IMG/VR virus record: IMGVR_UViG_3300044630_001055 | Location: 16,687 to 80,686 of that record | DNA: 64,000 nt | Source of the DNA: a virus | Strand: one strand, 5' to 3' | In this document: positions 13,180 to 54,100 of the stretch, one piece after another | Layout of the letters: each line of letters opens with the position of its first letter | Position numbering within the stretch: position 1 is the stretch's first letter | Program-made: the position numbers and the translations under genes | The notes under the pieces: model-generated | The model's database searches: none | What the model saw: only the letters and a program-made list of their open reading frames with translations | Told to the model about the DNA's origin: nothing

Positions 13180-13824
13180 CTATTTTATTAGGTTATGCTT
13201 AACCAATTGTTTGAATAAGTATTCTGATATCTTCCTATCCGATGGAAAATGTACACCACTTAATTCTCTTACTCTTTTTATTTTGTGATAAAATTTATCT
13301 ATTTCTTCTGCCGCTTCGGGTTTTATTTTTCCAAAGTGATATAATGTTACTAAAAAATCTAATGAATGTCCTGATGGGTATGATGCCGAATTTGCATCGG
13401 TTGTTACTATTGCATACAATTCCAATCCCAATTCTCTTGCCAATTGATATGGTCTTGGGCGGTTGAATTTATCTTTAAGATAAAACAATACCGGGTCTAT
13501 ATCAAAACACCAATTCTTTACCTGTTCGGTAGTGACATTTAATCCCAATTTTCTACCAGCTAATGCTAAAAAATCGTGATGATTATGCTCTAATAATTTA
13601 CAAAATTTAAAGTCATCAGCATCAGCTTTTTTTGTAATTTCAACCAAATATTCTAATTCCTTTTTGGTTTCATCTGATGAATTGGTTGGAAATGGATGAT
13701 TTTCTAATATATCCTTTACTATACCCTTATTAATACAATCCTGTAAGATACCAGCTCTATCAGCTTTTACCTTATCATCTTGCTCTTTGGGTGGATTACC
13801 AAATTTTATATCATCCAAATTCAT
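13180..13824 (-). CDS. soluble PAP2-superfamily phosphatase
   Basis: 214 residues with all three signature motifs of the PAP2 / vanadium-haloperoxidase superfamily: KX6RP (Lys117 to Arg124-Pro125), PSGH (150-153) and RX5HX3D (Arg186, His192, Asp196). The histidines and arginines form the phosphate-binding and phospho-histidine active site. Unlike membrane lipid phosphatases of this group it has no transmembrane helices or signal peptide, so it should be cytoplasmic or virion-borne. The substrate is unknown; nucleotides, polyphosphate or a phospholipid head group are possibilities. It lies 7 bases upstream of the 743-residue protein gene and is probably co-transcribed with it. Confidence 0.85.
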   Translation of the reverse strand: MNLDDIKFGNPPKEQDDKVKADRAGILQDCINKGIVKDILENHPFPTNSSDETKKELEYLVEITKKADADDFKFCKLLEHNHHDFLALAGRKLGLNVTTEQVKNWCFDIDPVLFYLKDKFNRPRPYQLARELGLELYAIVTTDANSASYPSGHSLDFLVTLYHFGKIKPEAAEEIDKFYHKIKRVRELSGVHFPSDRKISEYLFKQLVKHNLIK

Positions 13825-13906: not shown

Positions 13907-14536
13907 TTATTTAAATTTAAATCCGGTCAATTTTTCTATTTGTGTAATCGGTACTTCGTTATTTTGGAATCCATCGGCCGGTGATAAATCATTGTTGAAT
14001 AGATATGCGTGCCATTTTCCTGCTACCTGAACTACTTTCCAGCATTGTGTAGGAACTGATACTAACCCTATTTTCTTTGCTTCACCAACTGAACCACTCC
14101 ATACTCTTACTTTTGAACTAATCATTGCCCAATTTCGGGTTGCAGTTTCTAATGATTTCCAATCCCCTGCATTTAATCTATGAGTTTGTGCTACCATATT
14201 ACTAAAATAGAAACATTCATCCTGCACCGCTTGAGTTTGACAAAGGTTGTCCGCCGCCGGCATTACATGTCCTCTATCGTATCCACTTTTTAGGTAATAA
14301 AATGCAATATTAGTTTCATCTACCAATTGTGGGTCAGGTTTAAAGTTATCTTTTCTTTTTAGGGGTGTTGGACAACCTACCATTGCTTTTGTTGTTTCCC
14401 ATTCCACTAATACTGGGTATCTTTTTGATTTACTGAAGTGTGTTGTGTAGTTTGTGTGTTTGATTACTACGATGTCTTGTGCTCTTACAACAATTAATGT
14501 AAAAAAGAACAATAGAGATAAACCTAATTTTTTCAT
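13907..14536 (-). CDS. secreted DNA/RNA non-specific endonuclease (NUC1/EndA family)
   Basis: 209 residues. The N-terminus is a signal peptide: two lysines, a hydrophobic core LGLSLLFFFTLIVV and a probable cut after RA at residue ~19. The family motif DRGHVMPAADN (residues 87-97) supplies catalytic His90. The metal-binding asparagine is probably Asn113 in FYFSNM or Asn122 in NAGDW, with Glu130 a few residues on. Such enzymes degrade DNA and RNA without sequence preference. The signal peptide implies export to periplasm or medium, so likely roles are digesting DNA at or after lysis, or attacking incoming competitor DNA. It has its own TATTTATA motif upstream. Confidence 0.9.
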   Translation of the reverse strand: MKKLGLSLLFFFTLIVVRAQDIVVIKHTNYTTHFSKSKRYPVLVEWETTKAMVGCPTPLKRKDNFKPDPQLVDETNIAFYYLKSGYDRGHVMPAADNLCQTQAVQDECFYFSNMVAQTHRLNAGDWKSLETATRNWAMISSKVRVWSGSVGEAKKIGLVSVPTQCWKVVQVAGKWHAYLFNNDLSPADGFQNNEVPITQIEKLTGFKFK

Positions 14537-14577: not shown

Positions 14578-15864
14578 CTACACTTTTCCATAATCCAAAC
14601 CCCAACTTGCTTTGATTGGAAACCCACCCTCTTCAATGATTTCTTTCAAATCCTTAATCTTATTCTTATCCACATTCGTAGGAACATCAAATAGAAACGA
14701 GTCATAAGTATATAAACTAAATCCGATTCCACTATTTCTAATGTAATCTAATATCTTTTTCATCTTATCAATGTTCATTTCAGTCTCTAAGGCTTGTAGA
14801 AGATAGTTAAACACCTTTTGTGGATTTGAACCCTCTATCCAACTTAGGGGTATTCTACGATATTTGGTTTGTAGGTATCCGTTTTGTTGTGTTTCAATCC
14901 ATAATCCATCTATGTAATCAGCTACTGCGTTTAGATATGGAATTTGACGGAATGTATCATCGATTCCCCCATATAGTAATTGGAATGTAATACCCTTACC
15001 CTCATTTACATCACATCCATATTGTTCGGCTAACCACTCATGCACATTACCATCCGGCATATCAAACTTAATCAACTTACCAATAAGACGGGGGTGGTAT
15101 GCATTATAATCCATTTGTAGGAATATCCCATCGGAAACGAAACACTCCCTACTACCATCCGATTTATTGAGAGCGGCATAGTTCACACCACCATGTCGAT
15201 TTGAAGGTCTACCCGTTACCGTAAATGGATTGTATTCCGTAAACACTTTACTATCATCTGTCAAATGTCTAATAGCTTGATTCCATCTATCAGTAAATTT
15301 TTTCCTATCGACCCGAATCCCATATCCCTCCATTTCTGAAAGTGTGGGTATGAATGTTTGGTTATACCATCGATATGTGTTAGAATCTGAATTATTGGAA
15401 TAGTATTTAATGAATTGTGGTTCTATTACTTCCACAATCTTCATTAAAGGAATGGATTGAATTAAGTCATCTCTATACCCTTTATGAGTTAGCGTTGATA
15501 ATAAAGGATTTAAAGGTGCCTCATAATCAATAACCTCACCTGTCCTTACAAAGTATTCCGAATCTACATCATATAGATTTACCGAAACATAAAGAGAGTG
15601 TAATATTTTTTTCTTTTGGAATACCCACTTCTTACCATTGGTATTTAGTATCGATTTAACGTCCGATACTTTGATTGTAAGAGCATCTGCGTGTTGAATT
15701 GGTAAAACATACAACTCATCCAAACATCGTACCAGTATGAGAGAAAGATTAGTATGAAGAGGATGCTTTGAGTTATCAACCCATAGTGGATACCATATAG
15801 ATACTTCGGTTTCCAGCTTATCTTTCAACCAATTTACTTCCTCTATGGATTCTATAACTTTCAT
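14578..15864 (-). CDS. small divergent family-A DNA polymerase
   Basis: 428 residues from the ATG at 15864. That start is chosen because the upstream in-frame candidate (GTG at 15891) lies inside the tmRNA terminator, whereas this ATG follows a perfect promoter by four bases. Family-A landmarks are TGRPSNRHGGVNYAAL (217 on), motif A MDYNAYHPRL (Asp252), motif B KGITFQLLYGG (Lys290, Phe294, Tyr298, Gly299) and motif C LYTYDSFLF (Asp388). Deviations: the O-helix arginine position (286) is valine, and the usual HDE of motif C reads YDS. Residues 1-130 occupy the place of a 3'-5' exonuclease domain, but no DxE motif is visible. It is far shorter than T7 polymerase (704). Likely a DNA polymerase lacking proofreading. 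Confidence 0.75.
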   Translation of the reverse strand: MKVIESIEEVNWLKDKLETEVSIWYPLWVDNSKHPLHTNLSLILVRCLDELYVLPIQHADALTIKVSDVKSILNTNGKKWVFQKKKILHSLYVSVNLYDVDSEYFVRTGEVIDYEAPLNPLLSTLTHKGYRDDLIQSIPLMKIVEVIEPQFIKYYSNNSDSNTYRWYNQTFIPTLSEMEGYGIRVDRKKFTDRWNQAIRHLTDDSKVFTEYNPFTVTGRPSNRHGGVNYAALNKSDGSRECFVSDGIFLQMDYNAYHPRLIGKLIKFDMPDGNVHEWLAEQYGCDVNEGKGITFQLLYGGIDDTFRQIPYLNAVADYIDGLWIETQQNGYLQTKYRRIPLSWIEGSNPQKVFNYLLQALETEMNIDKMKKILDYIRNSGIGFSLYTYDSFLFDVPTNVDKNKIKDLKEIIEEGGFPIKASWGLDYGKV

Positions 15865-15868
15865 TTTA

Positions 15869-15900
15869 CAAAGATACAAAAAAAATCCCACAATTCCAAA
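15869..15900 (-). promoter_or_regulatory. Bacteroidota-type promoter for the family-A polymerase
   Basis: Coding strand: TTTG (15897-15900), 20-base spacer, TATCTTTG (15869-15876), four bases before the ATG. The -33 box and spacer overlap the tmRNA terminator. Confidence 0.75.
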
Positions 15901-15913
15901 TGGAAAAGTGGGA
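15878..15913 (-). terminator. intrinsic terminator of the tmRNA
   Basis: On the transcript, CCCAC (912-908) pairs with GTGGG (891-887) and inner TTCC with GGAA around an ATTT loop, separated by a 2x2 internal loop. Eight T residues follow (885-878). It starts two bases after the tmRNA CCA end. Confidence 0.8.
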
Positions 15914-15914
15914 G

Positions 15915-16294
15915 TGGTGGAGATGGCGGGATTCGAACCCGCGTCCAGATAAGTTTCTAATGTAAATCGTTCACAAGTTTAGGATAGTGTTTTATCTTAC
16001 TAACACTCCAAAAGAATTGGGGCCGAATGGTTAATTCAGCAGATTCCACCAATCCATTTTAAGTTTGGATAAACTTAAATGTTCACTTCTTTTTAAATCC
16101 CATGAGTGATACGGGAACGATTAGGCAGCTACTGCGTAATCGAAAGACTCCATCCATGCCATAGCATCTCCGAAAGTCATTGTAGATAATTCTACGTCTG
16201 CACTTATTGTTTGATAGGTCTTCAAAGGTTTCCATCTAACCTTACTTGCATCAATACAACCAGTCTTCATACCTGTCAAAAGCCGGTCATCCCC
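15915..16294 (-). ncRNA. ssrA: transfer-messenger RNA (tmRNA)
   Basis: About 380 nt. The 5' end GGGGATGACCGGC and 3' end CATCTCC-ACCA form a 7-bp acceptor stem (16294-16288 with 15925-15919). The third pair is G-U, the alanine identity element of tmRNAs. The 3' part contains the T-arm GCGGGTTCGAATCCCGC, and CCA is encoded. A tag reading frame ends GATTACGCAGTAGCTGCCTAA, encoding DYAVAA-stop with the stop at 16123-16121. The frame is open upstream to a GCA at 16201-16199 preceded by AATAAGT, the likely resume codon, which gives a 26-residue tag. tmRNA with SmpB rescues stalled ribosomes and marks the product for proteolysis. A perfect host-type promoter precedes it and a hairpin terminator follows. 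Confidence 0.93.
16121..16201 (-). other. tmRNA tag-peptide reading frame
   Basis: The inferred resume codon is GCA (Ala) at 16201-16199, then 25 more sense codons and TAA. The tag begins ADVELSTM and ends ESFDYAVAA. The hydrophobic VAA end fits ClpXP/Lon-type recognition. The end is certain; the start is inferred from the conserved position of the resume codon after an A-rich, AAGT-type context. Confidence 0.65.
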
Positions 16295-16313: not shown

Positions 16314-16345
16314 CAAATATACGATAAATATTTGTAATTTCCAAA
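16314..16345 (-). promoter_or_regulatory. Bacteroidota-type promoter for tmRNA
   Basis: Coding strand: TTTG (16342-16345), 20-base spacer, TATATTTG (16314-16321). It starts immediately after the stop codon of the 117-residue protein gene, and the -7 box lies about 20 bases before the mature tmRNA 5' end. Confidence 0.8.
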
Positions 16346-31359: not shown

Positions 31360-34300
31360 TTACTTACCCAATAATGCCTTTAATTCATTTATTTGTTGTT
31401 GTTGTTCTTTTATTGCCTCAATTAGTAATGCCGTTATTCTTCCATAAGATACCGAATCTGCTTCTCCAGATTTTGTAAAGTTAATAATTTCAGGAACAAT
31501 ATCTGCAACTTCTTCCGCAATTACACCAATTTCAGTATCATCCGAACCTTTTCTATTGTAAGTTACACCTCTTAATAATAATACTTTATCCAATGATTTA
31601 TTTAAACTAACTACATTTTCTTTATATCTAATAGATGATGTTTCTGTCAATGATATACAATTCAGTACATTTAAGTTTGTTGTACCATCCGGGTCACAAT
31701 AATACCCACTATTATTTGAATCATAAATTATAGTTGACCAGAATACACCTGAACTTTCGTTCAAGCCATACATTGCTATTTTATACCAAGCACGTTTTGT
31801 ATTCCAATAAGATGTATGCCATAAACCTTGAATAGGTCCACCAACTATTTGGATACCATATCCGTTATTATACCCAGCTACATAGTGATGGGCCTGAACA
31901 CCTACATAGTGAGATGTATCACCAGGAGAGTTTGGAATACCACCCCAAGTATCAATAAATCCAGACCCCCAACCAAATGCAGAAATAAAATCGGTTGTAC
32001 CCCAACCCATTGTACCTACCCAATAGTTAGAATCTCCAGTATAATCGTTTCTTCTAAAGTTACCTTTGGCTGTCAAACCAATTCTCATTTTAGAGTAATC
32101 ATCAGTTCCTTGCCATCTAGTAGTACCATTTCCATCAAAATAGAATCCGGTATCACTTCTGTCATAAAATATAGCTGAGCGAATATCTCCCGTATTAATG
32201 TATGAACCATCGTTTACGGTTAATGGTACGTTAAAGTAAAAATTAGGTCTATCAGTGTACATGTGTGCATGTCCACTATTCGCAGGTCCAAACCAAATAT
32301 ATCCATCATTTGTTCTAAATCTAACTCCCCATGTACTTTCCCCATCAAATCTACCAGTATTAGTTGATGTACCAAATCTTAGTTGATTAAATATAGATGT
32401 AGATAACGGGTCTGCGTAATATCCAGTATTATCTCTATCATAAAATATTGGTGCTCTCATCGAATCTCTAGCAAACATATTACCAGAAGTATCTATACCA
32501 CCAACCGTTTGACCTGCAGCTTCCGAATAAAAATGGAAAGATTCAGTTCCCACTAATTGCGATGTTACTCTTTTACCAACATACCAACCACTACCACTAC
32601 CACCATTATAACGAACCATAGCTTCGTATCCATTTCCTGGATTGATATAAAGGTATTTGTTTGATGCACCGGTAATAGTTAAATCCCAAAGAACAGATGT
32701 TGAACGAGGGTCTGTATAATAACCGGTATCGTTACTATCGTAGAATATTGGTGCTCTTAATGAGTTACCACCCGTTGCGTAATTGTTAAATAATACAGTA
32801 TTGTTTGGATACAACTCCATATTAGTAACTCTAGTACCAGATGTGTTAGTATTGTAGAAATATATATCCCCAGATGAAGCGAATCTCATATAACCTTGTC
32901 CAAACGAAGTATTTAGTCTACCAAATCCAGAAGGAGAACCACCATCGTTTGTTACGTTATATCCAAATCCAGCTCCTTCCCAACTTACATTAGGTTCAGA
33001 ACACCACATTTGCAGTTGTACAATACCAGTACCATTTCCATTATTTGCAGCAGGTAATCTATTAATTATTTGAGAAGTAGCATGTGCTCCACTATTTCTT
33101 ATACCACCAAATAATTCGGTAAATGTTGCAGGGTCTACATAATAAGCAGTATTTGCCGAATCATAAAACGCAGTTGCATATAATCCAGTAGCGTTCCAAT
33201 ATCCTAATTCAGCTCTATTATAACGATAGAAATGTAATGCTCCTCCAGCTGCACCAGCTTCAGTTTTTCTGCCACCAATACCAGCATATTCTCTAATTGT
33301 TCCACCACTATCTTTTAGTTGGAAATGTAAATTAGAACCTACTGATGTTGCTGAGTTATTGTGATTTGTTCTTGTTAAATGTAATGTACCATATGTACCA
33401 TCATCACTAAATGAAGTTCCACCTTTTCTCATATCAAACGCAACAGGTGTCGAATTTGATGTGTGCTCTAATATTACTTCATTTGCATTACTAAAGTTTA
33501 TTGCATTACCAGCGTTTGTTAAATTTAATGTAGCAAATGTTGGAGAATCGGTTGTTTGAATATTTTGATTCATTAAATGAACTTCAGTTGCACCAGGACC
33601 TGTGTTAATATTACCAGCTATTGTTAGTGTAGTACCATCAAATGTAAGATTACTTTCAACTGTTGCGTTTGGTGCAGTTCCGTTTAATGTAATTACACCA
33701 TTATCGGTTGTACCGGTTAAAGCAAGTACTCCAGACGTACCAGATGTACCAGCGCCAGATGTTCCAGACGTACCAGATGTACCAGCACCAGATGTACCAC
33801 TACTTCCAGATGAACCAGATGCGCCGGATGAACCAGATGCGCCGGATGCACCAGAAGTACCACTACTTCCACTACTTCCAGAAGAACCAGATGCGCCGGA
33901 TGCACCACTACTACCACTTGTACCACGTGTACCAGACGTACCTGATGTGCCTGAAGTACCACTTGTACCAGAAGTTCCGGATGAACCAGAAGTTCCGGAT
34001 GAACCAGAAGTACCACCAGAACCAGAAGTACCAGCTGCGGCTAACCAAGCTGAACCATTATATCGATATATGTTTGTATCTGAAGTATTGTAATATATTT
34101 GTCCAGCTTTTGTACCAACAGGATTTGTTGCGAATGCTGGAATTCTCAATGAACCACTTATATCCACCGAACCAGTAAATTCTTGTGTATCATTTGTTGC
34201 ATCACCAAATTTATTTGAACCAGATGAGTAAATTAAAGATGATGAAATAAATTGTACTAATATTTGTTGTGCTCGGATTGTACCACCAACAGTTAAGTTA

Positions 34301-37300
34301 CCACTAAGGGTTTCGTTTCCAGTAATAGTAGAATTACCCACTAAAGTTTGAGTTCCAATAACATTTAAGTTTTGAACTCTAGTACTACCACTTACATCTA
34401 ATGCAAATGTTGTTGATGGGTTTTGATTTATACCTAAACTACCAGTAATTATTGTATGTGCGGTTGATATTACAGTATTTCTACCACCAATAATATCAAC
34501 TTTCTTTAAATTAGTATTATTTAATAAAGATGTTGGTTGGGTTGCTTGTGCAGTTAGTGTTGTAACTGAACTACCTCTTGTCAAATATACATTAAAAGTT
34601 CCGGCAGCACTAGTACAAGCCTGCACAAACACCCATATTTCAGGATTAGTTGCACTTGCAGTATCACCTACTATAAAACTATTTATAGTTGTATTATTTA
34701 ATCTACTATATGGATGTACAATTATATCAGTTCCCTGATTATATGCCCCCACTATAAAAGTCACTTCACCACCATATCCATTATTATCCCAACTACTTTC
34801 AATATAAGTTGATAATGTTTGTTGACCATAAGTTGTGTATGAATTATGTATTCTTATATAAGCAGCGGGGTCTCCGGGATTTCTAACTAATGTTAATTTT
34901 GTATTATAAACATTACCACCTCTAATGTACTCACCAGTTATACCTCTGATTATTGTTACATCATTTCGTAATCTAGTAGAACCACTAACATCTAATGTAA
35001 ATCCACCATTTACAGTTGAACCAACGGTTAAGTTACCACTAATGGTTTCGTTTCCAGTTACCGCAAGAGTTGTACCATTAAATGTTAAGTTTGCCTCAAC
35101 ACTTGCGTTTGGAGCAGTTCCGTTTAATGTAATTACACCATTATCAGTTGTACCTGTCAATGAAAGTAAACCAGAAGAACCAGAAGAACCAGATGTACCG
35201 CTTGTACCGCTTGTTCCAGATGAACCACTACTTCCAGAAGAACCACTACTACCGCTTGTTCCGGAAGTACCTCGTGTCCCAGATGTTCCGGATGTTCCAG
35301 AAGTACCGCTTGTTCCAGAAGTTCCAGAAGTACCGCTTGTTCCACTAGCACCAGTTGCTCCAGAAGAACCACTACTTCCAGAAGAACCACTACTTCCAGA
35401 TGAACCACTACTACCGCTTGTTCCAGAAGTACCTCGTGTCCCAGATGTTCCAGAAGTTCCAGATGTACCGCTTGTACCACCAGTACCAGCAGTTCCCATT
35501 GTACCACTTGAACCAGATGTTCCAGAAGTACCAGATGTTCCACTTGTGCCGGAAGTACCACTACTACCGCTTGTTCCAGAAGTACCACTTGTACCCCCAC
35601 TACCAGATGTTCCGGCTGCTGCTAACCAAGTTGTACCATTGTATCGATATATGTTTGTATCAGCTGTGTTATAATATATTTGTCCAGCTTTTGTTCCCGT
35701 TGGGTTTGATGGATATGCTGGAATTCTTAATGAACCACTAATATCTACCGAACCAGTGAATTCTTGTGTATCATTTGTTGCATCACCAAATTTGTTACTC
35801 CCACTTGCGTATATTAATGATGATGAAATATATTGTACTAATATTTGTTGTGCTCTGATTGTACCACCAACCGTTAAGTTGCCACTAAGGGTTTCATTTC
35901 CAGTTACCGTTAAAGTAGTACCATCGAATCTAAGATTAGCCTCCGCAGTTACGTTTGGAGATGCACCATTAAGAGTAATTACACCATTATCGGTTGTACC
36001 ACTTATAGATAATGCTCCAGAAGTACCAGATGTTCCGCTTGTACCGCTAGTACCAGATGTACCACTTGTACCCGAAGAACCTCCACTACCAGCAGTTCCG
36101 TTTGTTCCACTTGAACCCGATGAACCACTACTTCCGCTTGAACCACTACTACCAGATGTTCCGCTTGAACCAGATGTTCCAGATGAACCTCCACTTCCTG
36201 CAGTTCCGTTTGTTCCAGAAGAACCAGAAGAACCAGATGAACCAGATGTTCCGCTTGTTCCACTTGTTCCGCGTGTACCAGATGTACCACTTGTTCCAGA
36301 TGTTCCAGAAGAACCCCCACTACCAGCAGTTCCACTACCACCACCAGCTCCAGTTACACCACTACTACCACTCGTTCCAGATGTTCCAGATGTTCCACTT
36401 GAACCAGTAGTTCCAGAAGAACCACTACTACCTGATGAACCCGAAGTACCTACAGTTCCAGAAGAACCAGAAGTACCTGATGTACCCGAAGTACCAGCAG
36501 TTCCCGAAGAACCACTACTACCAGATGAACCACTACTACCAGATGAACCACCAGCTCCAGTTATACCACTTGTACCGGAAGTACCAGATGTTCCACTTGT
36601 ACCAGATGTTCCAGAAGTTGCGGATGTACCACTCGTTCCAGAAGAGCCAGTTGTACCAGATGAACCAGTTGTTCCACCACTACCAGATGTACCAGATGAA
36701 CCAGTAGTACCACTACTACCACTTGAACCAGAAGTTCCAGAAGTACCTCCACTACCAGATGTACCAGAAGAACCAGATGAACCAGATGAACCAGATGAAC
36801 CAGATGTACCACCACTACCAGCAGTTCCTCTTGTACCACTACTACCGCTTGTTCCAGAAGTACCAGAAGTACCAGAAGTTCCGCTTGTTCCAGAAGAACC
36901 CCCACTACCAGATGTACCACCACTACCAGACGAACCATCCGTACCAGATGAACCAGATGAACCAGATGAACCACCACTACCGCTTGTACCACCACTACCG
37001 CTTGTACCAGATGAACCACCACTACCGCTTGTTCCAGATGTTCCAGAAGTACCAGAAGTACCAGATGATGCAGCTGCAGTTCTTCTACCAACCACACCAG
37101 TAGTTGTATTAAGTACTAAGAATTCTTGCGTTGTATTATCGGTAGTTACATTGGTATTATCAAATCTAACACTACCAGAAACTGCTAAACTACCACTTAT
37201 ACCTAACGAACCTGTTATTTCTTGTTTATCGTTACTTGCATCACCAAATTTGTTTGAACCAGATGAAAAAATAATTGATGATGATATATAAGTTACTTTT

Positions 37301-38088
37301 AATTCAGTTGCGTTTATTGTACCACCAACACTTAAATTTCCAGTTATTGTTTCATTACCAGTGATGGTTTGATTTCCAATCACACTTGAATTACCCACTA
37401 AAGTTTGAGAACCAGTTATTCTTAGTGCACCAGATATAAAAGTTGAACCACTTATATCAAATTGAGTTGTTGGTGTTTTTCTTATACCAACATTTCCACC
37501 ACCATTTGCTAAAATTACATTAGATGTTGATGCCCTATTAAGATATAAATCTACATTTGTTGAATCTATTCTACCATTAGATGGTGTAATTGCAATTGTT
37601 CTACCATTAGTAGTTGCGGTTATTGAAATTGAAGTATCGGGTGCGTTTACATTAATACCACCACTAACTATGTTTAAATTTCCACCATTTATGTTTTCAC
37701 TACCACTAATATTTAATGAACCACTTATCGTTGTATTTGTATTTACAACTAATCCTAAATTTGGTGAAATTACTGCTTGTGCTGAACCTGATTTAATTCT
37801 ATCCAAATCACCAATTGAAGATGCATTGATATTCGTTAAACCACTACCATTTCCTGTAAATAATGATGCCGATACTGAACCACTAAATTGTGAATTTGCA
37901 TTTATTTGTAATGTTGCTCCGTTTGGAGTCCCAATTTGATAAGTTTGTACGGCCGAACCACTTAGTTTACCAACAACACTTACCGATTCTGAAGTAGCAG
38001 TTAAAATAGATGAACCACTTACAAAAAGTGATACACTATTTACACTATTTTGATTTAACCCATTGGGACTTTTACCGTTGAACTCCAT
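31360..38088 (-). CDS. giant tail fibre with collagen-like arrays and S74 autoproteolytic chaperone
   Basis: 2242 residues. Residues ~1-340 are strand-rich SGSLxxSG modules. Three Gly-x-Ser/Thr arrays occupy ~341-694, ~826-974 and ~1353-1456, separated by beta modules ([36 protein letters not shown]). From ~1500 five units of the form YDxxxTGYYxDPxxT occur, typical of the shaft before a chaperone. The C-terminus (2151-2242) is a Peptidase_S74 domain: SSIRYKENV gives Ser2151 and Lys2156, then [14 protein letters not shown] and an [17 protein letters not shown] coiled coil. S74 domains trimerise fibres and then cut themselves off. Probably a receptor-binding fibre. Confidence 0.9.
33720..34030 (-). 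repeat. Gly-Thr-Ser collagen-like array 3 of the S74 fibre
   Basis: About 100 residues of GTSG/GSSG/GASG units (~residues 1353-1456) with nine-base periodicity at DNA level. Confidence 0.9.
35165..35610 (-). repeat. Gly-Thr-Ser collagen-like array 2 of the S74 fibre
   Basis: About 148 residues of GTSG/GSSG units (~826-974), with occasional GTRG, GTMG and GATG variants. Confidence 0.9.
36005..37065 (-). repeat. Gly-Thr-Ser collagen-like array 1 of the S74 fibre
   Basis: About 353 residues of Gly-x-y triplets where x/y are almost only Ser, Thr, Gly or Ala; no prolines are seen. Rare variants are GTRG, GITG, GVTG and GTNG. Confidence 0.9.
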
Positions 38089-40175: not shown

Positions 40176-43100
40176 TTAATTCATGTTTAATCCGGTCACA
40201 AATCCATAATAAGATGAGCCCCCATCAAATGTGTAAAATACTAATATATCCTCACCAGATGAAGTTAAAATTGGAGGTGTACCACCTACCCAATTTACAC
40301 CACTCCAAGCTAATGAATGTGCTCCTGCGTTTACTGCTAATAATGTAAATCCAAATGCTTTTCCAGCAGGTGCATTTGAGAATGATATTGAACCATTTCC
40401 AGTAAAAGTTCTCTTAAAGTTGTTAGCAGTTGATAAATCAATTGATGCACCACTACCACTTCCTAAATCAGAGAAAGTTTCTCTGAAAGTTGTTGATGTT
40501 GTAAATCCAGTTGTAGATAAACTAGTTGATAGATTTACACCATTTGTTGCAATTATGTTTAAAGATGTGGGTGAAGTCAAATTAGGAGTTCCACCGGTAT
40601 AAATGTTAAATGCTGATGCGGATACGGGTCCAGTTGCTTGAATTGTACCAGTTACAGTTAATGTACTACCATCAAAAGTTAAATTACTTTCAACCCGTCC
40701 ATTTGGTGCAGTACCATCTAATGTGATAACACCATTATCAGTAGTTCCTGTCAATGCTAAGAAACCACTTAAACCAGACGAACCAGATGTTCCAGCTCCA
40801 GATGTACCCGATGTTCCAGAAGTTCCAGATGAACCAAAATTTGTTCCATCTAATCCAGATGAACCAGAAGTTCCAGATGTACCATTTGTACCTTCACCAG
40901 ATGTTCCAGACGTTCCAGACGTTCCTGATGTACCACTACTACCAAATAAAGTTCCATCTAAACCAGATGTACCAGACGTTCCCGATGTACCATCTGTTCC
41001 AGTTGAACCAGATGTACCAGACGTTCCTGATGTACCACTTGTACCAGACGAACCAAAGAATGTTCCATCTAAACCAGAAGTCCCAGAAGTTCCAGAAGTT
41101 CCAGATGTGCCATCTGTCCCAGATGTACCCGAAGTACCACTTGTTCCAGATGTTCCAGACGAACCAAAATATGTACCATCTAAACCAGATGTGCCAGAAG
41201 TTCCAGATGTGCCAGAAGTTCCATCAGTAGCATCAATTCCAGATGTTCCAGATGTACCACTTGTTCCAGAAGTTCCAAAGAAAGTTCCGTCTTGTCCACT
41301 TGTACCAGATGTACCCGATGTACCAGAAGTTCCATTGGTAGCATCTAAACCAGATGTTCCAGATGTACCAGATGTACCATTTGTTCCAAAAAAAGTTCCA
41401 TCTTGTCCACTTGTACCAGATGTACCACTCGTTCCGCTTGTACCATCGGTCCCAACACCAGATGAACCAGAAGTTCCGCTTGTACCAGATGAACCAAAGA
41501 ATGTACCATCTACACCACTTGTACCAGATGTACCACTTTCGCCACTTGTACCAGATGAACCGCTTTCTCCACTTGTACCAGATGAACCGCTTTCTCCACT
41601 TGTACCAGATGAGCCAAAGAATGTTCCATTTAAACCAGAAGTACCGCTTGTACCAGATATACCATCAGTACCACTAACACCAGATGAACCAGAAGTACCG
41701 CTTTCTCCACTTGTACCAGATGAACCAAAGAATGTTCCATCTAAACCAGAAGTACCGCTTGTACCCGATGTACCAGAAGTTCCATCAGTCCCAGAAATAC
41801 CGTTTGTACCACTTTCTCCACTTGTCCCACTTGTTCCAGATGAGCCAAACAATGTTCCATCTAAACCAGAAGTACCAGAAGTCCCAGAAGTTCCAGATGT
41901 ACCATCGGTCCCAGATGTACCAGAAGTTCCATCAGTACCAGAAGTTCCATCAGTACCGCTAGTACCAGATGTACCACTTTCACCACTTGTTCCGCTTGTT
42001 CCAGATGTACCACTTGTGCCTGAAGTACCAGATGTACCACTTGTGCCTGAAGTACCAGATGAACCAAATAAAGTTCCATCTAATCCACTTGTTCCAGATG
42101 TACCAGATGTTCCATCGGTACCCGAAGTACCAGAAGTTCCATCAATACCGCTTGTACCAGATGTACCTGATATACCTGAAGTACCGCTTGTACCCGAAGT
42201 ACCAGATGTTCCATCAGTTCCAGAAGTTCCGCTTGTTCCAGAACTACCATCACTACCACTTGTACCAGATGTTCCGCTTGTACCAGATGAACCTTCAGCC
42301 GATGTACCACTACTACCACTTGTACCAGATGTTCCATCACTACCACTTGTACCATTTGTACCACTTGTCCCACTTGTACCATCACTTCCAGAAGTTCCGC
42401 TTGTTCCGCTTGTTCCAGAAGTACCACTTGTACCTGATGTACCATCAGTTCCGCTTGTACCCGATGTACCATCAGTTCCGCTTGTACCCGATGTACCATC
42501 GATTCCCGAAGTTCCAGAAGTTCCGCTTGTACCAGATGAACCGCTTGTACCAGATGTACCATCAGTTCCGCTTGTACCAGATGTACCATCCGTACCGCTT
42601 GTACCAGATGTACCGCTTGTACCAGATGTACCATCAGTCCCAACACCAGAAGTTCCAGATGAACCGGAAGTACCATCAGTTCCAGAAGTTCCACTTGTCC
42701 CATCTGTTCCAGAAGTACCGCTTGTACCAGATGTACCATCCGAACCAGTTGTACCACTACTTCCGCTTGTACCAGATGTACCATCAGTTCCGCTTGTACC
42801 AGAAGTACCGCTTGTACCAGATGTACCGCTTGTACCAGATGTACCATCCGAACCAGTTGTACCACTACTACCAGAAGTACCGCTTGTTCCATCGGTTCCT
42901 GAAGTACCAGAAGTACCGCTTGTACCGCTTGTACCAGATGTACCGCTTGTACCAGATGTACCGCTTGTACCAGAAGTACCGCTTGTACCAGAAGTACCAT
43001 TTAACCCAGAAGTTCCCGATGTACCACTTGTTCCGCTTGTTCCACTTATACCACTTGTTCCAGAAGTACCAGAAGTTCCAGAAGTACCATTTGTACCAGA

Positions 43101-46100
43101 AGTACCAGAAGTACCAGAAGTACCAGATAAACCACCGGAACCAGATGTGCCCGATGTACCAGATGTGCCAGAAGTTCCATCAGAACCATCAGCTCCATCA
43201 CTACCAGATGTTCCACTTGTACCAGAAGTACCCCCACTACCTGCACTACCATCTATTCCATCCGAACCTTTTGCTCCAGATGTTCCGCTTGTTCCTGATG
43301 AACCAGACGTACCAGATGTTCCCGATGTACCATTTAATCCGTTTACACCAGAAGTACCCGAAGTACCAGAAGAACCAGATGTTCCACCACTACCAGCAGT
43401 ACCAGCAGTTCCATTTGTACCACTTGTACCGCTTGTTCCACTTGTACCACGTGTGCCACTACTTCCACTTGTTCCAGATGTTGCGGATGTACCTGATGTT
43501 CCACTAGTACCAGATGTTCCGCTTGTACCAGCAGTTCCAGATGTTCCAGATGTTCCCCCACTTCCAGATGTACCAGAAGTTCCAGAAGTTCCAGATGTTC
43601 CAGATGTTCCATCCGAACCAGTTGTACCACTACTACCGCTTGTTCCAGAAGTACCGTCCGAACCAGTTGTACCACTACTACCGCTTGTTCCAGAAGTTCC
43701 AGAAGTTCCGCTTGTACCAGATGAACCACTTGAACCGCTACTACCAGATGAACCTGATGAACCACTTGTTCCAGATGTTCCAGATGTTCCAGATGTTCCC
43801 GAAGTACCATCAATTCCACTTGTTCCCGAAGTACCGCTTGTACCAGATGTTCCGCTTGTTCCAGAAGTACCATCCGTACCATTTGTACCAGAAGTACCAG
43901 AAGTACCAGAAGTACCAGAAGTACCGGCTGCCTGCTGAACATCTCTTGTTTCTAATTTTTTAGTAGTAGGGTCCCAAGTTACAACCAATTGAGAGGCTGA
44001 TGATGTATAAAATTGTTGTATATATACACTACCAGTAATATCTAAACTACCAGTTATTACCAAACTACCACTAAATCTTTGATTACCTGAATTTAGTAAG
44101 AATGATGATGTATCTATACTTTGTGCATTTAATGCAAATTGTGCAATACTTGCAAATGATGAACTAAATACTGTCATCGATGCAGTTTGTGCATTTGTAA
44201 TAAATCCTTCCGCAGATAATACCCCACCTAATACATGAGATGCGGTTAGTGCGTAAGATGCGGAAACTGCTAATGAAGCAGTACCAACCAACATTGATGC
44301 GGTTTGTGCATTTTGTACAAAGTTAGCAGTATCAACATTTGATGCGTTTTGTGCAAATAATGCGTAAGAAGCAGTTCTAGCAAACGATGCACTTAATACT
44401 GTCATCGATGCGGTTTGTGAATTTAACACAAATTCACCAGCATTTACCGATGCTGATATTAATGCTTCTAAAGATGCCGTATTTAATCCTATTACACTGC
44501 CAGCTATGGTTGCAAAATTAGCGTTTACCGCATGTGATGAGGAAAGTACCGTTCCAATTACTCTATCCGCCTGAATTGTACCATTTATTAACGAACCACC
44601 ACTACCAATTACGATATGTCCACTTGTCAATCCACTAAATGTTACTTGAACAGTGTTATTATCGATTGCTAAAATAGATGCAGGAAGAATCATTTCATCT
44701 TGCGAACCAGTTCCATACACCTGTACCATTGGGTATCTAATATCCAAATTATGTACAATCGTTACCGAACTTGCGTTACTAAATGGTACAGTCTCCGTTA
44801 ATGAAGTTTCGGGTTGAGGAATATAGTATCCCCTATTCTCATCATATCTTAAAGTATTGTATTCCGCAGATGCTTCGATACCAGCTCCATTAAATGTATA
44901 TGTACCATTAAATGAACCACTAAAGAATGGAGAATATGCAAAACTTGCGGTTAATTCAGGCGTTGTTATAAAATCAGAATAAGTTCTACCATAGATACTT
45001 GCCGATGTATTAACAACAAAACCATTATCAGGTGAAATCGATGCCGTAAATGAGCCCGATTTCATTATAAATGTTTCAAATGATAGATTTGCAATGTTGA
45101 TATTATTCAAACCACTACCATCTCCAACAAATCTACTACCACTTTGAACAATAATTGAACCACTTTGAACAATAATTGAACCAGTTACATGCAACGAACC
45201 ACTTTCAATTGAAGTATCGGTATTTATTTCCAATCCTCTGTTTGGAGATATGACAGCTTCAACAGAACCCGATTGAATTCTATCTAATTGAAGGTCTTGT
45301 AATGATTCAGCAGGAATGTTAAATAACCCACCACCATCTCCAGCAAAAAATGATGCAGTTACCGTTACGTTTACATTTAATTTTTGTGGGTCTAATATAG
45401 CTAAAGCAGAGCCGGAAACTAGTCTATCCAATTCTAGATTTGTCAATGCTTCAGCTGGAATGTTAAATAGTCCACCACCATCTCCTCTATAAAATGATGC
45501 CGATATCGAACCACTTAATAATGTACTACCACTAACAACTAAACTAGAACTAAAGTTTGCATTTCTTTGAATTGTTAAAGGTACATTTGATATCAGTCCA
45601 TTATTTGGTGATATTGATGCGGTTGCACTACCACTAGCAATACGAGGTGCATCTCCGGAAATTTCAGCAATTACACCGGTCAATTGAGAACCATCTCCAA
45701 AATAAGTTGTTGCTCTTACTGAACCACTTACTACAACACTTCCACTAAATGTAGAACCACTTGCTACTGAAGTTACTAAAAATCCAGTATTAGGTGAAAC
45801 CGAAGCAGTTACCGAACCACTTTGAATTCTTGGTGATGCCGCTGCTACTACATTTTGTAATTGAGAACCATCTCCAATAAATGTAAATGCAGCTACCGAA
45901 CCACTTACAACAGTACTTCCACTAAGAATTATACCATAACCACTAACTTCCGAACCACTATAATCATTTGATATTACTTTGAATCCATATGCAGGGTCTA
46001 CTGAAGCAGTTACCGAACCTGATGCTATTAATGTTGCTACCAATGCATCAGGTGTTAAAGCTGAACGAGGGATATCAAATAAACCAGCACCACTACCACT

Positions 46101-49100
46101 AAATACCGATGCAGTTACTACACCAACAACTTTAGTATCACCAACTAATTTTATTTCCGATGGGATATAGATGGCATCTACTACATTAATAGTACCAGCC
46201 ATTGCAACATTATTCTCATTATTGTAATAAAGAGTATCAGGTGCACTACTTGAAACTAAGAACGATATAGTTCCGTTATCTTCACCATTATTAGTTACCC
46301 AACTATCATATCCGTTTTGATTACCAATTGCACTAGCACTATTAATCCAAAATGAATATCCTACCGCATCTACGTTAAAAATATAAGAATTACCTCTTAC
46401 TAATGTTAAATTTACATTTGAACCACTAGCTGCTCCACTAAACCAATATGCAGAACTTCCATCGTTTACTACATCAAATGTATTTGGTAATTCATCCAAT
46501 GGAGTAGGTCTAGCCGATGATGAAACTACAAAACTACCACTAATGGTAGTAAATGTGTTTACAACCAATCCTTTATTTGGTGAAATCGATGCCGTAGCTG
46601 AACCACTTGTTATTTTATTAGAAATTAGTGCATCAATAGTTAAAGCAGAACGAGGAATATCTGATAATCCGGCCCCACTACCACTAAAAAATCCACTACC
46701 GCTTGGTATTGTTATCGAACCACTTACCGAAATACTACCACTAAAAATTGAACCACTTACTATTGAAGTTACTAATAAACCAGTATTGGGTGCTACTGAA
46801 GCAGTTACACTACCACTAGCAATACGGAATACTTCACTTGCTAATGCTGATTGAGGTATATCAAATAATCCTCTACCACTACCACTAAACATTGATGCGG
46901 AAACAGGAAATTCGAATGTTGAAAATGTATTAACTACAAATCCATCAACAGGTGAAATAGATGCAGTTGCCGTACCACTAAATATCTTTGTTGAATCAAT
47001 TGCTAAGTTGGCAAGAGTAATATTAGAAAGATATCTACCATCTCCAATAAAATATGAAGAACTAGGTACATATAAATTACCACTTACAATAGTATCCCCT
47101 ATAAATTTAATAGTAGGGTCAATTTGATATTTTTCTTTTATAATAATTGTACCTGCCATTGAACTATGGAATTGACAATTATAATATAAAATATTAGGAG
47201 AACCAGTTGGTGGTGTAAATGTTATTGTGGCATTTGAAGCTCCATTATTTACTACACCAATATCATATGTATCTAAAGTTCCAGTTGTTTTAGTGGTCTT
47301 TATCCAAAAAGGGTGACCTGTTGCTGCAATATTAAATGTATATGGTACATTTTGATATAAAACTAAAGTAGGATTTGAACCACTAGCCGCTCCACTAAAT
47401 ACATATTCTCCACTACCAGCATTTACCACATTAAATGTAGTATCTAATGAAGATGTTGATAATTCCCAACCAGATGATGATACTATTAAACTACCACTAA
47501 TTGTTGTAATTGCGTTTATACCAAATCCAGTCAATGGGTCAGCTGATGCAGTTACACTACCACTTGCTACTCTATATGCTTCGGTTGCTAATGCAGATTG
47601 TGGAATATCAAATAATCCTTTACCACTTCCACTAAAAATGGATGCAGATACAGTATTTGTAAAGAATGCAGGTACATTTACATTAAATCCTTCCGATGGT
47701 GAGATTGATGCCGTAGCACTTCCACTAAATATCTTTGTTGAATCAATTGCTAAGTTAGCAAGTGTTATGTTTGAAAGGAATCTACCATCTCCAATGAAAA
47801 ATGAACTACTATTAATAGTTACACTACCACTTACATCAACGCTTCCACTTATTTTAGTTCCGTTTTCAACCGATTCTACAACAAATCCTCTATCAGGTAT
47901 TGCGGATGCGGTTACTGAACCAGATGCTATTCTAAATACTTCTTGTGATAATGCCGATAATGGTAAATCAAATAAACCAGCACCACTACCAGTAAACATA
48001 GATGCCGATACCGTATATTCAAAATTAGCAGGTACATTTACTATAAATCCGTCAACAGGAGATATAGATGCGGTTGCTGAACCACTTGCTATTTTATTAA
48101 TTTCAAATGCTAAAGCTGATTGTGGTATTTCAAACAATCCTTTACCACTACCACTAAAGAATGAACCAGTTGTTATTTGAATACCACCACTTACAAATAA
48201 ACTTCCACTAAATGTTGAACCACTTACTACCGAAGTTACTACAAAACCAGTATTTGGTGCTACCGAAGCAGTTACCGAACCTGATTTAATTTCAGTTGAT
48301 ACTAAAGCATCTACCGATAATGCCGAACGAGGTATGTCTTTTAAACCAGCACCACTACCACTAAAGAATGAACCAGTTTCAACCTGTATATTACCACTAA
48401 CAATTAAACTTCCACTAAATGTACTACCACTTGCTACTGAAGTTACTACAAATCCTTTATTTGGACTAACGGAAGCAATCACACTACCACTTTCTATTAA
48501 AGTTGCGGTTAATGCCGGTATATTAAACAATTGAGAACCATCTCCAATAAAAAATGATGATGATACACTACCACTAACAACCACATTCCCAATAAATGTA
48601 GAACCACTTTCTAAAGATGTTACAACAAATCCACCATCAGGTGACACCGATGCTGTCACAGAACCAGATTTAATTTCAGTTGTTAGTAAAGCATCAAATG
48701 TTAATGCTGAACGAGGTATATCGGTTAAACCAGCACCACTACCACTAAAAAATCCACTACCGGTGGGTATTACTATATTTCCACTAACAATTAAGCTTCC
48801 GCTAAATGTAGAACCACTATCTATTGAAGTTACTAAAAATCCGGTATCAGGTGAAACCGAAGCAGTTACTGAACCTGATTTTATTTCGGTTGATATTAAT
48901 GCATCCTGTGTTAATGCTGAACGAGGTATATCAAACAATCTAGCTCCACTACCACTAAATGATGAACCAGAACTTAATTCAATTCCACCACTTACAAATA
49001 ATGAACCAGTAAATTGAGAACCACTTTCTAATGATTGAACCACAAATCCCGTATCAGGACTTACCGATGCAGTTACACTACCACTTGCAATTCTACTAGC

Positions 49101-50144
49101 ATCACCAGATAGATTTGAAATAGGAATATCAAATAATCCTCTACCACTACCACTAAACATTGATGCTGATACTGAATATTCAAAGAATGCGGGTACATTT
49201 ACCAACAATCCAGTACTATCTTGAATTGATGCAGTTGCCGAACCACTAGCAATTCTATTCGAAGTTAATGCATCCGGTGTTAAAGCAGAACGAGGTATGT
49301 CAAATAAACCAGCACCACTACCAGTAAACATTGATGCAGATACCGAATATTCAAAATTAGCAAATGTGTTTACTACCAAACCAGTATTTGGTGCAATTGA
49401 AGCAGTTGTAGAACCACTTGCTATTAAAGTTGCGGTTAATGCTGGTATATTTGTTAGTCCACTACCATCTCCAAAAAATGAACCACTAAATGAACCAGTA
49501 AATGAACCAGTTGCAATTACACTTCCTATAAATGAACCACTAAATGAACCAGTTGCACTATTTACCGTTAAAATATCTCTAATTCCAACCGAACCTGTTA
49601 GTTGTTGGTTATCAAACCCACTATCTCCAAATATGTTAGAACCTGATGAATAAATTATTGATGATGATATATACGTTACTATAAGAGATTCCGCATATAT
49701 TGATTTTGATACATATAAATTACCTTCAATTGATGTATTACCTTGAATTATTGCATTAGTATTTACAACTAATGAAGTACCATCAAATGATGCAGTTTGC
49801 GAACCACTTGCAATAAATGGTGCAACTACGGATGGTACGTTTACTAAACCACTACCATCTCCTACAAAATTTCCTAAAAATGAACCACTAAATGAACCAG
49901 AAAGGTCAGCAATACCTTTAAATGAAGATGTTATTTCATTTAATACAATTTTTTGTGCAAATCCTCTATTACCCTCACTATCCGTAATTAAAATAGCCGG
50001 ATTGGATTCTAAAGATGCCGAAAATGAAGGAACACCAAAGTTTGGTTCAACTTGGGATAAATCTACAAATTCGTATCTATCTGATGTTACATTTTTAGGT
50101 CCTTTTAATCGAACTCTACCACTTAATAGGTTGCTTATTGCCAT
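40176..50144 (-). CDS. giant tail fibre with long Gly-Thr-Ser array and cupredoxin-like domains
   Basis: 3322 residues. Residues ~1-1700 are tandem modules of about 60-70 residues, typified by [20 protein letters not shown], then [20 protein letters not shown] and [13 protein letters not shown]. Two cupredoxin-like domains are inserted at ~900-1005 and ~1220-1325. The first keeps GHPFW and [12 protein letters not shown] (Cys, His and Met ligand positions); the second does not. Residues ~2073-3126 are one ~1050-residue Gly-Thr-Ser array with [11 protein letters not shown]-type interruptions. The C-terminal ~200 end in a small strand-rich domain with no S74 chaperone. It is probably a tail fibre or other long virion appendage. 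Confidence 0.85.
40765..43925 (-). repeat. ~1050-residue Gly-Thr-Ser array of the 3322-residue fibre
   Basis: Nine-base periodic DNA encoding GTSG units. It is broken at intervals by [11 protein letters not shown] / [11 protein letters not shown]-type segments in its C-terminal half. The same DNA read on the plus strand gives a long Pro-Val-Pro frame that is an artefact. Confidence 0.9.
46170..46480 (-). other. degenerate cupredoxin-like domain in the 3322-residue fibre
   Basis: It has [22 protein letters not shown] and later [12 protein letters not shown]. The fold pattern matches the neighbouring intact copy, but His, Cys and His ligand positions read Tyr, Asn and Asn; only Met remains. 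Confidence 0.55.
47130..47440 (-). other. cupredoxin-like domain with full ligand set in the 3322-residue fibre
   Basis: [22 protein letters not shown] is followed ~50 residues later by [12 protein letters not shown]. His, then Cys-x2-His-x2-Met, is the ligand order of a type-1 copper site. Copper binding is inferred. Confidence 0.55.
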
Positions 50145-51106: not shown

Positions 51107-54100
51107 TTAAATTTGTAGTGCCAATGAGAACGGAGTTACTAATGAGAACAATGATTTACTAAATGTTCTACCAACCAAAGTTCCAGTAGCTTGATTGATA
51201 CTTAAACCAGTACCAATTCTAAAGTCACCATCCTGATTTCCAGAGGTAAAGAATATTCTACCACCACCTAATTCAGTAATTTCAAATATTGGATTTGGAA
51301 CACCACTACCACCCTGATTTGGGGGAAGTGCTTTAAATGTAACACCACTACCATTGTAAGAGTAGTCAATACCAGTTGCCACAATTAGTGAACCAAATGA
51401 TTCCAAAGGTGCACCTGCTGCTATAAACTCTGCTCTAGTTCTTAAATATCTATTTGTTTCCAAAGTTTCCAATAATTGGTCTCTAGTCACAGCTATTGCA
51501 CTTCCATATTGACCATCATAGTATGATGATGCTGCTCTGATTCCTCTTTCGTTTCCACCATATAATAAATCAGTTACAGCCGCATCTACAATAAATCCAG
51601 TATCACGCGAACAACTTGCCTCATTATATACTAAATATGGAAAAGCTCCATTTGTGTATCCAATTGCTCTTTGTTTTAATTCTTCTTTACCACCTTTTAA
51701 TCTTTCAGCTGCTTGTCTTCTTAATGTAGTTGGTGCTAAGTAAGTTAATAGCGTATTTGCTACTATTTTTTCAGAAAGTCCTCTTGCGAAGTTTATACCA
51801 TCTACCGTTTGTTTTTTCTGTCCGTTATTATCACCATAACTTTCCAAAATTGCTACTGATGGGAATTTATAGTAGTAAGAACCTGCCTCAATACTTCTTT
51901 CATTACCACCATAAACTAAATCCGTTCTAATTGCATCTATAATAAATCCTAAATCTCTAGAACAACTCACTTCATTGTATTTTAAACCACTCCAAGATGC
52001 AGATAAGAACGTTATAGTTTCTTTTTGTATTAATTGTTTGTTATCTGTCAATAATTTTGCGGTTGTCAATAATGATGCCGATGGTACTAAATATGTTGGG
52101 TTAGTTATTACCTTTTTAGATACCCTTCCGGCATATCTGATACCAGTAAGTGTTGGGTCTGATTGATTTTGTGTAGATGGAACTCCCTTATTAGTTGCAT
52201 TCGATGGATATAAGTAATAATACTGCCCAGCTATCACACTTCTTTCAGTTCCACCATATAATACATCCGTTGCTGCCGCATCTATTAAGTATCCAACATC
52301 TCTTTTACAAGTTGCTTCGTTATAATATACACTACTCCAAGAAGAAGATACATATGCGATAGTTTCTTCTGCTATAAATGCTTTATTCTTTCTTAATAAA
52401 TCAAATGATGCAGATGCCTCTAATGAAGCTGTTACAAATGTAGTACCACTTACAATTTTTTGTGCTATTCTACTTGCGTAATTTATACCATCAATTGTTT
52501 GTCCTAATTGTCCTACACCATCACCATCTCCCAATAAGATTGCTTTTGATGGATATTTGTAATAGAAATCACCAGCTACTACACTTCTTTCGTTTCCTCC
52601 GTATAATAAATCAGTAGTTGCTGCATCTAATATGTATCCTAAATCTCTAGCACATTTTATCTTATCATATTCAAAATTACTCCAACTTGCAGTTAAGTAA
52701 GCCATACTTTCACTTACAATAAATGTTCTATTGTTTCTTAATAATGCTACGGATGATGAAACAACCAATGAAGCAGTATTGAATGAAAGATTTTGAACTA
52801 ATTTAGTTGCTAAACCTTTTGCGTAATCAATTGCGGTTACAGTTGGGTCTAATTGAGAACCAGTTACTTTTGATGGAGCCTCCCAATATGCAATTCCAGC
52901 TAAAGAACTACTATGATTTCCACCATAAAGAATATCACCAGCTACTGCCTCAACAATATATCTAATATCTCTAGAACAAGTTGTTGAATTGTACTCAAAT
53001 CCACTCCAAGAAGATGATAAGAATGATATACTCTCACTTTGGATAAATCCTATGTTTTGAGTTAATAAATCGTATGCAGCAATCTTTGATAAATCGTTTG
53101 ATGGAGTTAAACCAGTAGATTGAGATACAGGTGTAGGTATCAACCAATTGTTTATAGAAGCAGATACTAATCTAGCTGCGTATTTGATTCCATCTATTGT
53201 TTCAGTTAATTGAGTATCAGTAGCCTCCGATGGATATAAGTAATAGAACTCACCAGCTTTAGAACTTCTCTCATTTCCACCATATAATAAATCAGTTGAA
53301 ACTGCATCTAAGATATATCCAACATCTCTCTTACAAGTTTCTTCATTGTAATAGAAATCAGGGTATTTAGCGTTTATATATGCAACACTTTCACTTTGGA
53401 TAAACTTCTTATTACTTCTGATTGAATCATATGCAATTGATGAAGTTACATAGAATTGTGCATTCTTAATTACATTCAATGCCAATCCTTTTGCATATCT
53501 AACACCAGTTAAAGTTGGTTCTAATTGAGAATCGGTAGCTTGAGATGGGAAATCATAATAATATTTTCCAGCTATAATACTTCTTTCATTTCCACCATAT
53601 AATAAATCAGTTCTTACCGCATCTACTATGTATCCAATATCTCTAGCACACTTAATTTCATCATATCCAAACTCACTCCAAGAAGAACTTACATAAGCTA
53701 TACTTTCACTTTGAATAAATCCTTTATTTTTAGTTAGTGCTACATAAGATGCCGAAATAGTTGCTGATGCTGATATGTGAGTTAATACAATATTTTGTAC
53801 AACCTTCTCAGCCACACCACTTGCGTATTTGATTGCGGTAATTGTTTGGTCTAATTGTGAACCGGTAGCCTGTGATGGGAAATCAAAATAGAACTTACCA
53901 TTAAACAACGATGCCGAATTACCACCATATAAAAGGTCAAATGCAGAACCACTAAGGATTCCTGTCAAATCTCTCTCACACTTACTTTGAGTATATGCAA
54001 ATCCACTCCAAGATGAACTCATATAAGCAATAGTTTCATCAACTATGAATTTAGAGTTACTTACTAATAGATTATATGCCGAATTTATTTTTGTATTTGT

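Follow-up and report, generated by a model that had tools for sequence, protein, structure and literature searches.

The tmRNA gene and its surroundings

The window analysed here, a 64,000-nucleotide stretch that extends from base 16687 to base 80686 of a virus record 80,686 bases long, carries on its minus strand a tmRNA gene bordered by promoter and terminator motifs and followed by a DNA polymerase-like gene (Table 1). This gene is the sole tmRNA called by ARAGORN in the window. These 380 bases also align to positions 1-374 of the Rfam model RF00023 at a score of 99.6 bits (E 1e-37; gathering score, 47). A first-pass annotation, made from the sequence alone, had described a complete tmRNA with a 7-bp acceptor stem, the alanine G-U pair and an encoded CCA, and both programs and inspection bear this out: the acceptor stem reads GGGGAUG/CAUCUCC and includes the alanine G3-U70 pair, CCA is encoded immediately after it, and the tRNA-like domain has a T arm, in agreement with the Rfam alignment.

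Table 1. Features of the tmRNA locus (positions are those of the window).
Feature	Position	Strand	Description	Basis
DNA polymerase-like gene	14578..15864	-	428 aa, downstream of the tmRNA gene; phrog_17 DNA polymerase, E 4e-13	PHROG
Second promoter-like match	15869..15900	-	overlaps the terminator, precedes the next gene	pattern search
Terminator	15878..15913	-	hairpin and T run	folding and sequence
tmRNA gene	15915..16294	-	380 nt; full-length RF00023 match	ARAGORN, Rfam
H5-like hairpin	16118..16142	-	last tag codons and stop; -9.7 kcal/mol, z -3.7	
Tag reading frame	16121..16201	-	26 residues, ADVELSTMTFGDAMAWMESFDYAVAA	ARAGORN, Rfam, sequence
Conserved inserted peptide	16142..16180	-	MTFGDAMAWMESF; family core [MWF]T[FYW][ED]DxM[AS][FW]	
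N-terminal hairpin	16182..16195	-	GUAGA-AUUA-UCUAC, just 3' of the resume codon	
Pseudoknot PK1	16213..16243	-	AAGGUU/AACCUU with GAUGG/CUAUC, upstream of the resume codon	
Bacteroidota-type promoter	16314..16345	-	TTTG-N20-TATATTTG	pattern search

The resume codon, GCA, occupies positions 16201-16199 and the stop codon, TAA, positions 16123-16121, leaving 26 tag codons between them. The Rfam alignment sets the model segment 'AAUAAuUGCaAA' on AAUAAGUGCAGA with high posterior, far from the stop, and treats 38 tag bases as an insertion relative to the model; the 26-codon frame proposed in the first-pass annotation thus stands. Of 55 distinct upstream regions, the window's included, 51 form a pseudoknot resembling PK1, compared to 105 of 275 shuffled sequences. 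The PK2-PK4 region is aligned by Rfam with a posterior that is low across much of its length. Altogether, these data confirm that the locus is a complete phage-encoded tmRNA gene with a genuinely long tag.

The gene also has its own transcription signals, as had been suggested initially. The promoter conforms to what we take to be the Bacteroidota consensus, and a pattern search yielded 11 matches to the motif in the window where 3.7 are expected. Of 81 distinct regions upstream of tmRNAs, 52 contain the pattern TTTG, 18-23 nt, TAnnTTT[GA], against a mean of 0.73 after shuffling. The terminator hairpin, spanning 15913-15886, has a folding energy of -16 kcal/mol (z -5.0); a simple terminator scan of the window did not report it, probably because of an inner loop. 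The second promoter-like match may serve the polymerase-like gene. Next to the latter lie a gene for a DNA/RNA non-specific endonuclease (13907-14536, minus strand) and one whose product gives a PAP2 match under the curated cut-off (13180-13824, minus strand). Three very large genes on the same strand (31360-38088, 40176-50144 and 51107-60310) encode proteins of 2242, 3322 and 3067 aa. The first two products contain collagen repeats and the 2242-aa one has a Peptidase_S74 end, and they look like tail fibres.

Long-tag tmRNAs in other viral contigs

Relatives were collected using the polymerase-like gene as query. Scanning viral contigs for this downstream gene yielded 75 loci selected blind to the tag, 67 of which have the long-tag frame. 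Two of the remaining eight are on contigs that start inside the tmRNA and five on contigs that begin within the polymerase gene; the last (L047) has the polymerase but no tmRNA. A scan of viral contigs for the tag end produced at least 119 further loci, and a third scan, based on the tag core, brought the tag type to at least 242 loci with at least 160 distinct tag flanks. Several viral contigs count as two loci each, so locus counts exceed contig counts. Of the 195 loci collected before the core scan, ARAGORN called a tmRNA in 148. Among six tag-blind loci with room upstream but no ARAGORN call, five were recovered by Rfam.

A long frame of 23-26 codons is present in 88 of 89 distinct tmRNA sequences from the fetched viral loci, the 89th being an ordinary short-tag tmRNA picked up through a chance pattern match. 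This count, along with the Rfam alignment, argues against a mis-set resume codon, and that reading was rejected. ARAGORN itself reports tags of 23-26 residues in 77 of the 88; the short tags that it gives for the other 11 (e.g., VNKPEHYLSAP) are mis-calls, as the long frame sits at the usual place. We also considered that part of the frame might be a separate small ORF starting from an inner ATG, and discarded the idea since 17 of 31 distinct tag peptides have Trp or Phe in place of the corresponding Met (24 of 57 distinct tags once loci from the core scan are included).

A single tag pattern, [FY][DE]DxM[AST]F.GAD, matched once in 84,980 species genomes, within a permease-like gene, and a cellular origin was rejected on this ground. 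A tblastn search of 50,697 phage records with a family-type tag gave no match, nor did the tmRNA of one relative (L137) when compared with the phage-record collection; the window tmRNA matched short stretches only (13% covered at most in the best 40 of 129 records). In IMG/VR, a host-type short-tag pattern hit 13 contigs, and ARAGORN identified ordinary tmRNAs in 11. Within the window and one relative (G002), the tag core occurs in the tmRNAs themselves and in two chance frames only.

The window's polymerase gene is found downstream in only 22 of 112 pattern-found loci with sufficient room; the long-tag tmRNA therefore occupies several genomic contexts. The commonest neighbour gene family accounts for 50 of 175 loci and, with no family exceeding this number, a shared neighbour gene was dismissed as the tag receptor. 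One family consists of small proteins of about 105 aa that end in ...EEYELCAEIKKIL...; in 17 of the 175 loci (L103, L129, L143, L301 and 13 others) such a protein ends where the tmRNA starts, some 40 to 140 bases ahead of the tag. Related copies occur elsewhere in some loci, and a Pfam search of two members gave no match.

Comparison with host tmRNAs and with other phages

As host group we used the phylum of the metagenome-assembled genome G001, whose contig is titled 'Bacteroidetes bacterium'. A tmRNA match was obtained in 277 of the 296 genomes of this group, and none at E 1e-20 in the other 19. From the 277, we sampled 100 loci in 99 genomes: G001, the 30 best matches, 40 hand-picked among the matches listed, and a further 28 genomes with low scores, contributing 29 loci. 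ARAGORN called 96 of these 100 loci, missing L234, L246, L412 and L413. The tag has 8-12 residues in 95 of the 96 and 18 residues in one, as against 26 in the window; the tags of the phage relatives exceed those of the likely hosts two- to threefold in length. Hence, the initial description of the phage tag as unusually long holds with respect to Bacteroidota hosts but less so to bacteria at large: the available text of PMC8012679 records tags of 8-35 residues across species, so that 26 is long yet has precedents. Likewise, Bacteroidota tags are short, as the first-pass annotation stated, but only 31 of the 96 begin with Gly-Glu; DNNY, ANDY and ADDY starts are also common. The 18-residue tag (GKNNILPLFGGAGVKAAA) belongs to one of two tmRNA matches in its genome (L414 in G302) and may represent contamination.

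The window tmRNA resembles Bacteroidota ssrA in being a one-piece molecule, and many of the sampled genomes have a tag ending in YAxAA (GENNYALAA, GEYNYALAA). In contrast to the host tags, the phage tags hold about 15 extra residues and a conserved core between start and end. For phylogenetic comparison, trees were built from tmRNA sequences lacking the tag, with 30 of the 88 phage tmRNAs (one per distinct core). All 30 came out as a single clade when compared with 35 of the 69 hosts called at that stage (support 1.0), and did so again against 62 hosts and the phage LR756508.1 (support 0.98), both trees being confined to phages and this host phylum. The sampled phage tmRNAs thus do not group within those of the hosts.

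We infer that long-tag phages infect Bacteroidota because the promoter motif precedes 52 of 81 distinct tmRNAs and because a gene for ribosomal protein bS21 is present in 6 of 12 phage records searched. A search of the window's own record for bS21 gave no match. Freshwater phages encoding bS21, with genomes of up to 331 kb and inferred Bacteroidetes hosts, are described in PMC9723584; they share this gene with the six records above but not with the window's, and the word tmRNA is absent from the available text. The polymerase-like protein adds weakly to the host assignment, being 26% identical to proteins of Flavobacterium phages; identity is 30.5% with LR756508.1 and 28% with a Microcystis phage.

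LR756508.1, a 484-kb uncultured phage, has a tmRNA at 92434-92880 (72 bits) whose in-frame tag reads as about 36 residues (GVNNADYESAGFTAEDFAQMDGESLYHGSERKPAAV); ARAGORN gives a different tag. This tmRNA (L367) is placed among host tmRNAs in the tree and, therefore, its long tag may have arisen independently. A search for relatives of this tag with one 11-residue pattern returned none. The same genome specifies a second RNA of 112 nt (L369; 414804-414915, 58 bits) whose appearance is that of an isolated tRNA-like domain of tmRNA.

This short RNA bears on one way in which a phage tmRNA might act, namely as a decoy: by titrating host SmpB, it would block trans-translation by the host. According to the portion of PMC4131195 available, the tRNA-like domain alone inhibits tmRNA, perhaps by SmpB titration, and LR756508.1, though distant, has such an RNA besides its full tmRNA. 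However, the long-tag genes keep the tag frame, the stop codon and PK1, needless in a decoy, and one relative supplies SmpB of its own; we give the decoy explanation very little credence. The SmpB gene turned up in none of nine records and then in one of twelve, eight records being common to both sets. It encodes a 147-aa protein (L415) in a 294-kb record (G305), about 5 kb from the long-tag tmRNA (L340). The latter scores 68 bits with Rfam and is not called by ARAGORN; its tag has an unusual end, VGAGEVLMAA.

Searches for Lon_C and for SspB were negative in 12 phage records each. ClpP was found in one of eight tag-bearing records searched; no full tmRNA was seen in the other ClpP-bearing record (G005). 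In the 171-kb record G008, a distance of about 4 kb separates a ClpP-like gene from the long-tag tmRNA (L281).

Phage tmRNAs as such are a known kind. They are described in mycobacteriophages, Bacillus phage G, Streptomyces phages and pelagiphages including Melnitz (PMC4131195 and PMC9004378, in the text available), and the accessible part of PMC7162821 reports huge phages with both tmRNA and SmpB. The annotated tags of other phage tmRNAs, among the matches listed, measure 11-13 aa, compared to 26 here; the Melnitz tmRNA is two-piece according to the available text of PMC9004378, unlike the one-piece RNA of the window. No report of a phage tmRNA clade with a conserved long tag insert was found in the open-licence literature, and this variant appears to be new.

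Constraints on the inserted sequence and its possible role

In its layout, the phage tag resembles a tag of host type into which some 15 residues, including a conserved core, have been placed. When 31 distinct tag peptides were aligned on the anchor S[TS] alone, position 5 was aromatic in all, position 7 was D in 28 and S in 3, position 9 was M in 30 and L in one, and position 11 was F in 28 and W in 3. The same preferences at positions 5, 7, 9 and 11 are seen in the 16 distinct peptides of the tag-blind set, which is free of pattern bias but made up of closely related members. The same core recurs in larger sets (57 distinct tags, and 177 loci obtained independently of the core pattern), in which positions 5, 9 and 11 are partly fixed by the patterns used. 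More generally, the tag-end and core scans demanded the tag end or the core and some counting patterns fixed residues, so that conservation is inflated in those sets. The tag peptide has no match in Pfam. A likeness to the starts of DUF2829/Tad2 proteins finds no backing in the analysis and was set aside.

Variation within the insert follows the reading frame. Mean entropies at codon positions 1, 2 and 3 are 0.33, 0.22 and 0.76 among 44 distinct 60-base tag ends, and 0.47, 0.48 and 0.82 among 15 distinct 30-base cores from tag-blind loci. In frame, the 11 codons of the core give a pN/pS ratio of 0.39 (44 distinct sequences) or 0.43 (16 tag-blind sequences), the former value being one of moderate constraint; in the two other frames it is 2.07 and 1.33, from only 6 and 26 stop-free sequences, respectively. 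Amino acid change lags behind synonymous change in the tag frame only, so that the inserted peptide appears to be under selection.

As for the end of the tag, loci found regardless of it have YAVAA (59), YAYAA (23), YALAA (23), LAVAA (16), EATFA (4) or YAVSA (2), and five further ends are seen once each. Alanine is the final residue in 31 of 31 distinct tag peptides, a count for which the row filter had asked for A[VIYL]AA. The last codons and the stop form the H5-like hairpin of Table 1. Two Ala codons within this helix are never alike in 88 of 88 sequences: GCT is combined with GCA in 55 and GCA with GCT in 33, and the two pair as GCU/GCA or GCA/GCU throughout.

At the other end of the tag, a hairpin is folded by 31 of 31 distinct N-terminal 21-mers. 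Its stems among relatives are GUAGA/UCUAC, GAAGA/UCUUC, GUUGA/UCAAC, GACAA/UUGUC and UGAC/GUCA. Eight of 13 distinct 15-base hairpin cores share a register in which five pairs form the stem, and the three stem sequences seen among them amount to a compensatory pattern; the other five lack such a stem and form the hairpin in a shifted register. By itself, the window's hairpin is weak (-4.2 kcal/mol, z -1.2). Synonymous codings of equal stability make up 0.5-7% of the total for peptides of the DEMST, DEKST, GEEKSS and DNELST types, whereas they are not rare (11-32%) for the VELST and EELSS types. Owing to this difference between peptide types, the evidence that the RNA hairpin is selected is mixed.

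These findings raise the question of whether the insert is kept mainly as RNA, its hairpins shaping the tmRNA ring or shielding the frame from host toxins that cut mRNA. The constant presence of a hairpin after the resume codon, the compensatory stems and the rarity of equally stable codings in four peptide types would fit such a role. Yet it would account for the first 5-7 codons only, and in the core the third codon positions are more variable than the first and second. We consider this explanation improbable.

Our working interpretation, which we hold to be somewhat better than an even bet, is that of a functional phage tmRNA whose selected insert docks tagged proteins on a particular receptor. 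The phage tmRNA would rely on host SmpB and host alanyl-tRNA synthetase and load on stalled ribosomes in infected cells, the unfinished protein receiving an alanine plus the 26-residue tag. Tag ends of tmRNAs are degrons of the ClpXP type, and the C-terminal DYAVAA would provide this usual hydrophobic signal. The RNA hairpin in the first codons might serve to compact the enlarged frame, which lies between PK1 and the stop-codon helix. The inserted core (TFEDAMAF-like) would then act as a selected peptide signal by which the tagged protein docks on the receptor; a protease of the host, or an adaptor of such a protease, is the most likely candidate. As a result, stalled products in infected cells would be handled differently from those tagged by the host, which suggests that the virus may steer tagged proteins its own way. 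Weighing against this interpretation are the negative searches for Lon_C and SspB, the finding of ClpP in just one of eight tag-bearing records, the lack of a neighbour gene family common to more than 50 of 175 loci, the moderate pN/pS and the ease with which VELST and EELSS types reach the stability of the N-terminal hairpin.

The gene could instead be an ordinary tmRNA that stands in, or is kept in reserve, for host tmRNA damaged in the course of infection; its long tag would be no more than a historical extension, with a sequence irrelevant to the fate of the product. This alternative, which we deem unlikely, agrees with the retention of a degron-like end, inasmuch as the filtered set of 31 tags tells of it, and with the long tags recorded elsewhere (8-35 aa, in the text of PMC8012679 available). 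However, frame-specific constraint and a near-invariant core are unexpected of a neutral extension. Of the two roles put forward in the first-pass annotation, the frame-specific conservation of the insert, as judged from the sequence comparisons, favours redirection of tagged products over simple replacement of host tmRNA, although both could be true.

A tag that was lengthened and then held at the amino acid level suggests that its content matters to the phage. A bolder version of the docking interpretation, which we consider less likely than not, is that trans-translation has been rebuilt in a large clade of Bacteroidota jumbo phages as phage-run protein sorting, with the insert as a phage-specific address read by a dedicated receptor; if so, every protein rescued by the phage tmRNA would go to a fate chosen by the phage. 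In practical terms, the tag core is a short, portable peptide with which a receptor can be searched for and, in our judgement, it may yield a new degradation tag for Bacteroidota.

A longer tag can accompany a change of protease, as Gur and Sauer reportedly found in 2008. The tag of Mesoplasma florum (AANKNEENTNEVPTFMLNAGQANYAFA), 27 residues with the charged alanine, is targeted by the Lon protease of this organism according to the accessible part of PMC9097571. It is as long as the window tag and has a hydrophobic stretch before the usual end; organism and tmRNA are different, and the two tags are likened by length and hydrophobic stretch alone. By analogy with Mesoplasma, the longer phage tag might go along with a change of protease.
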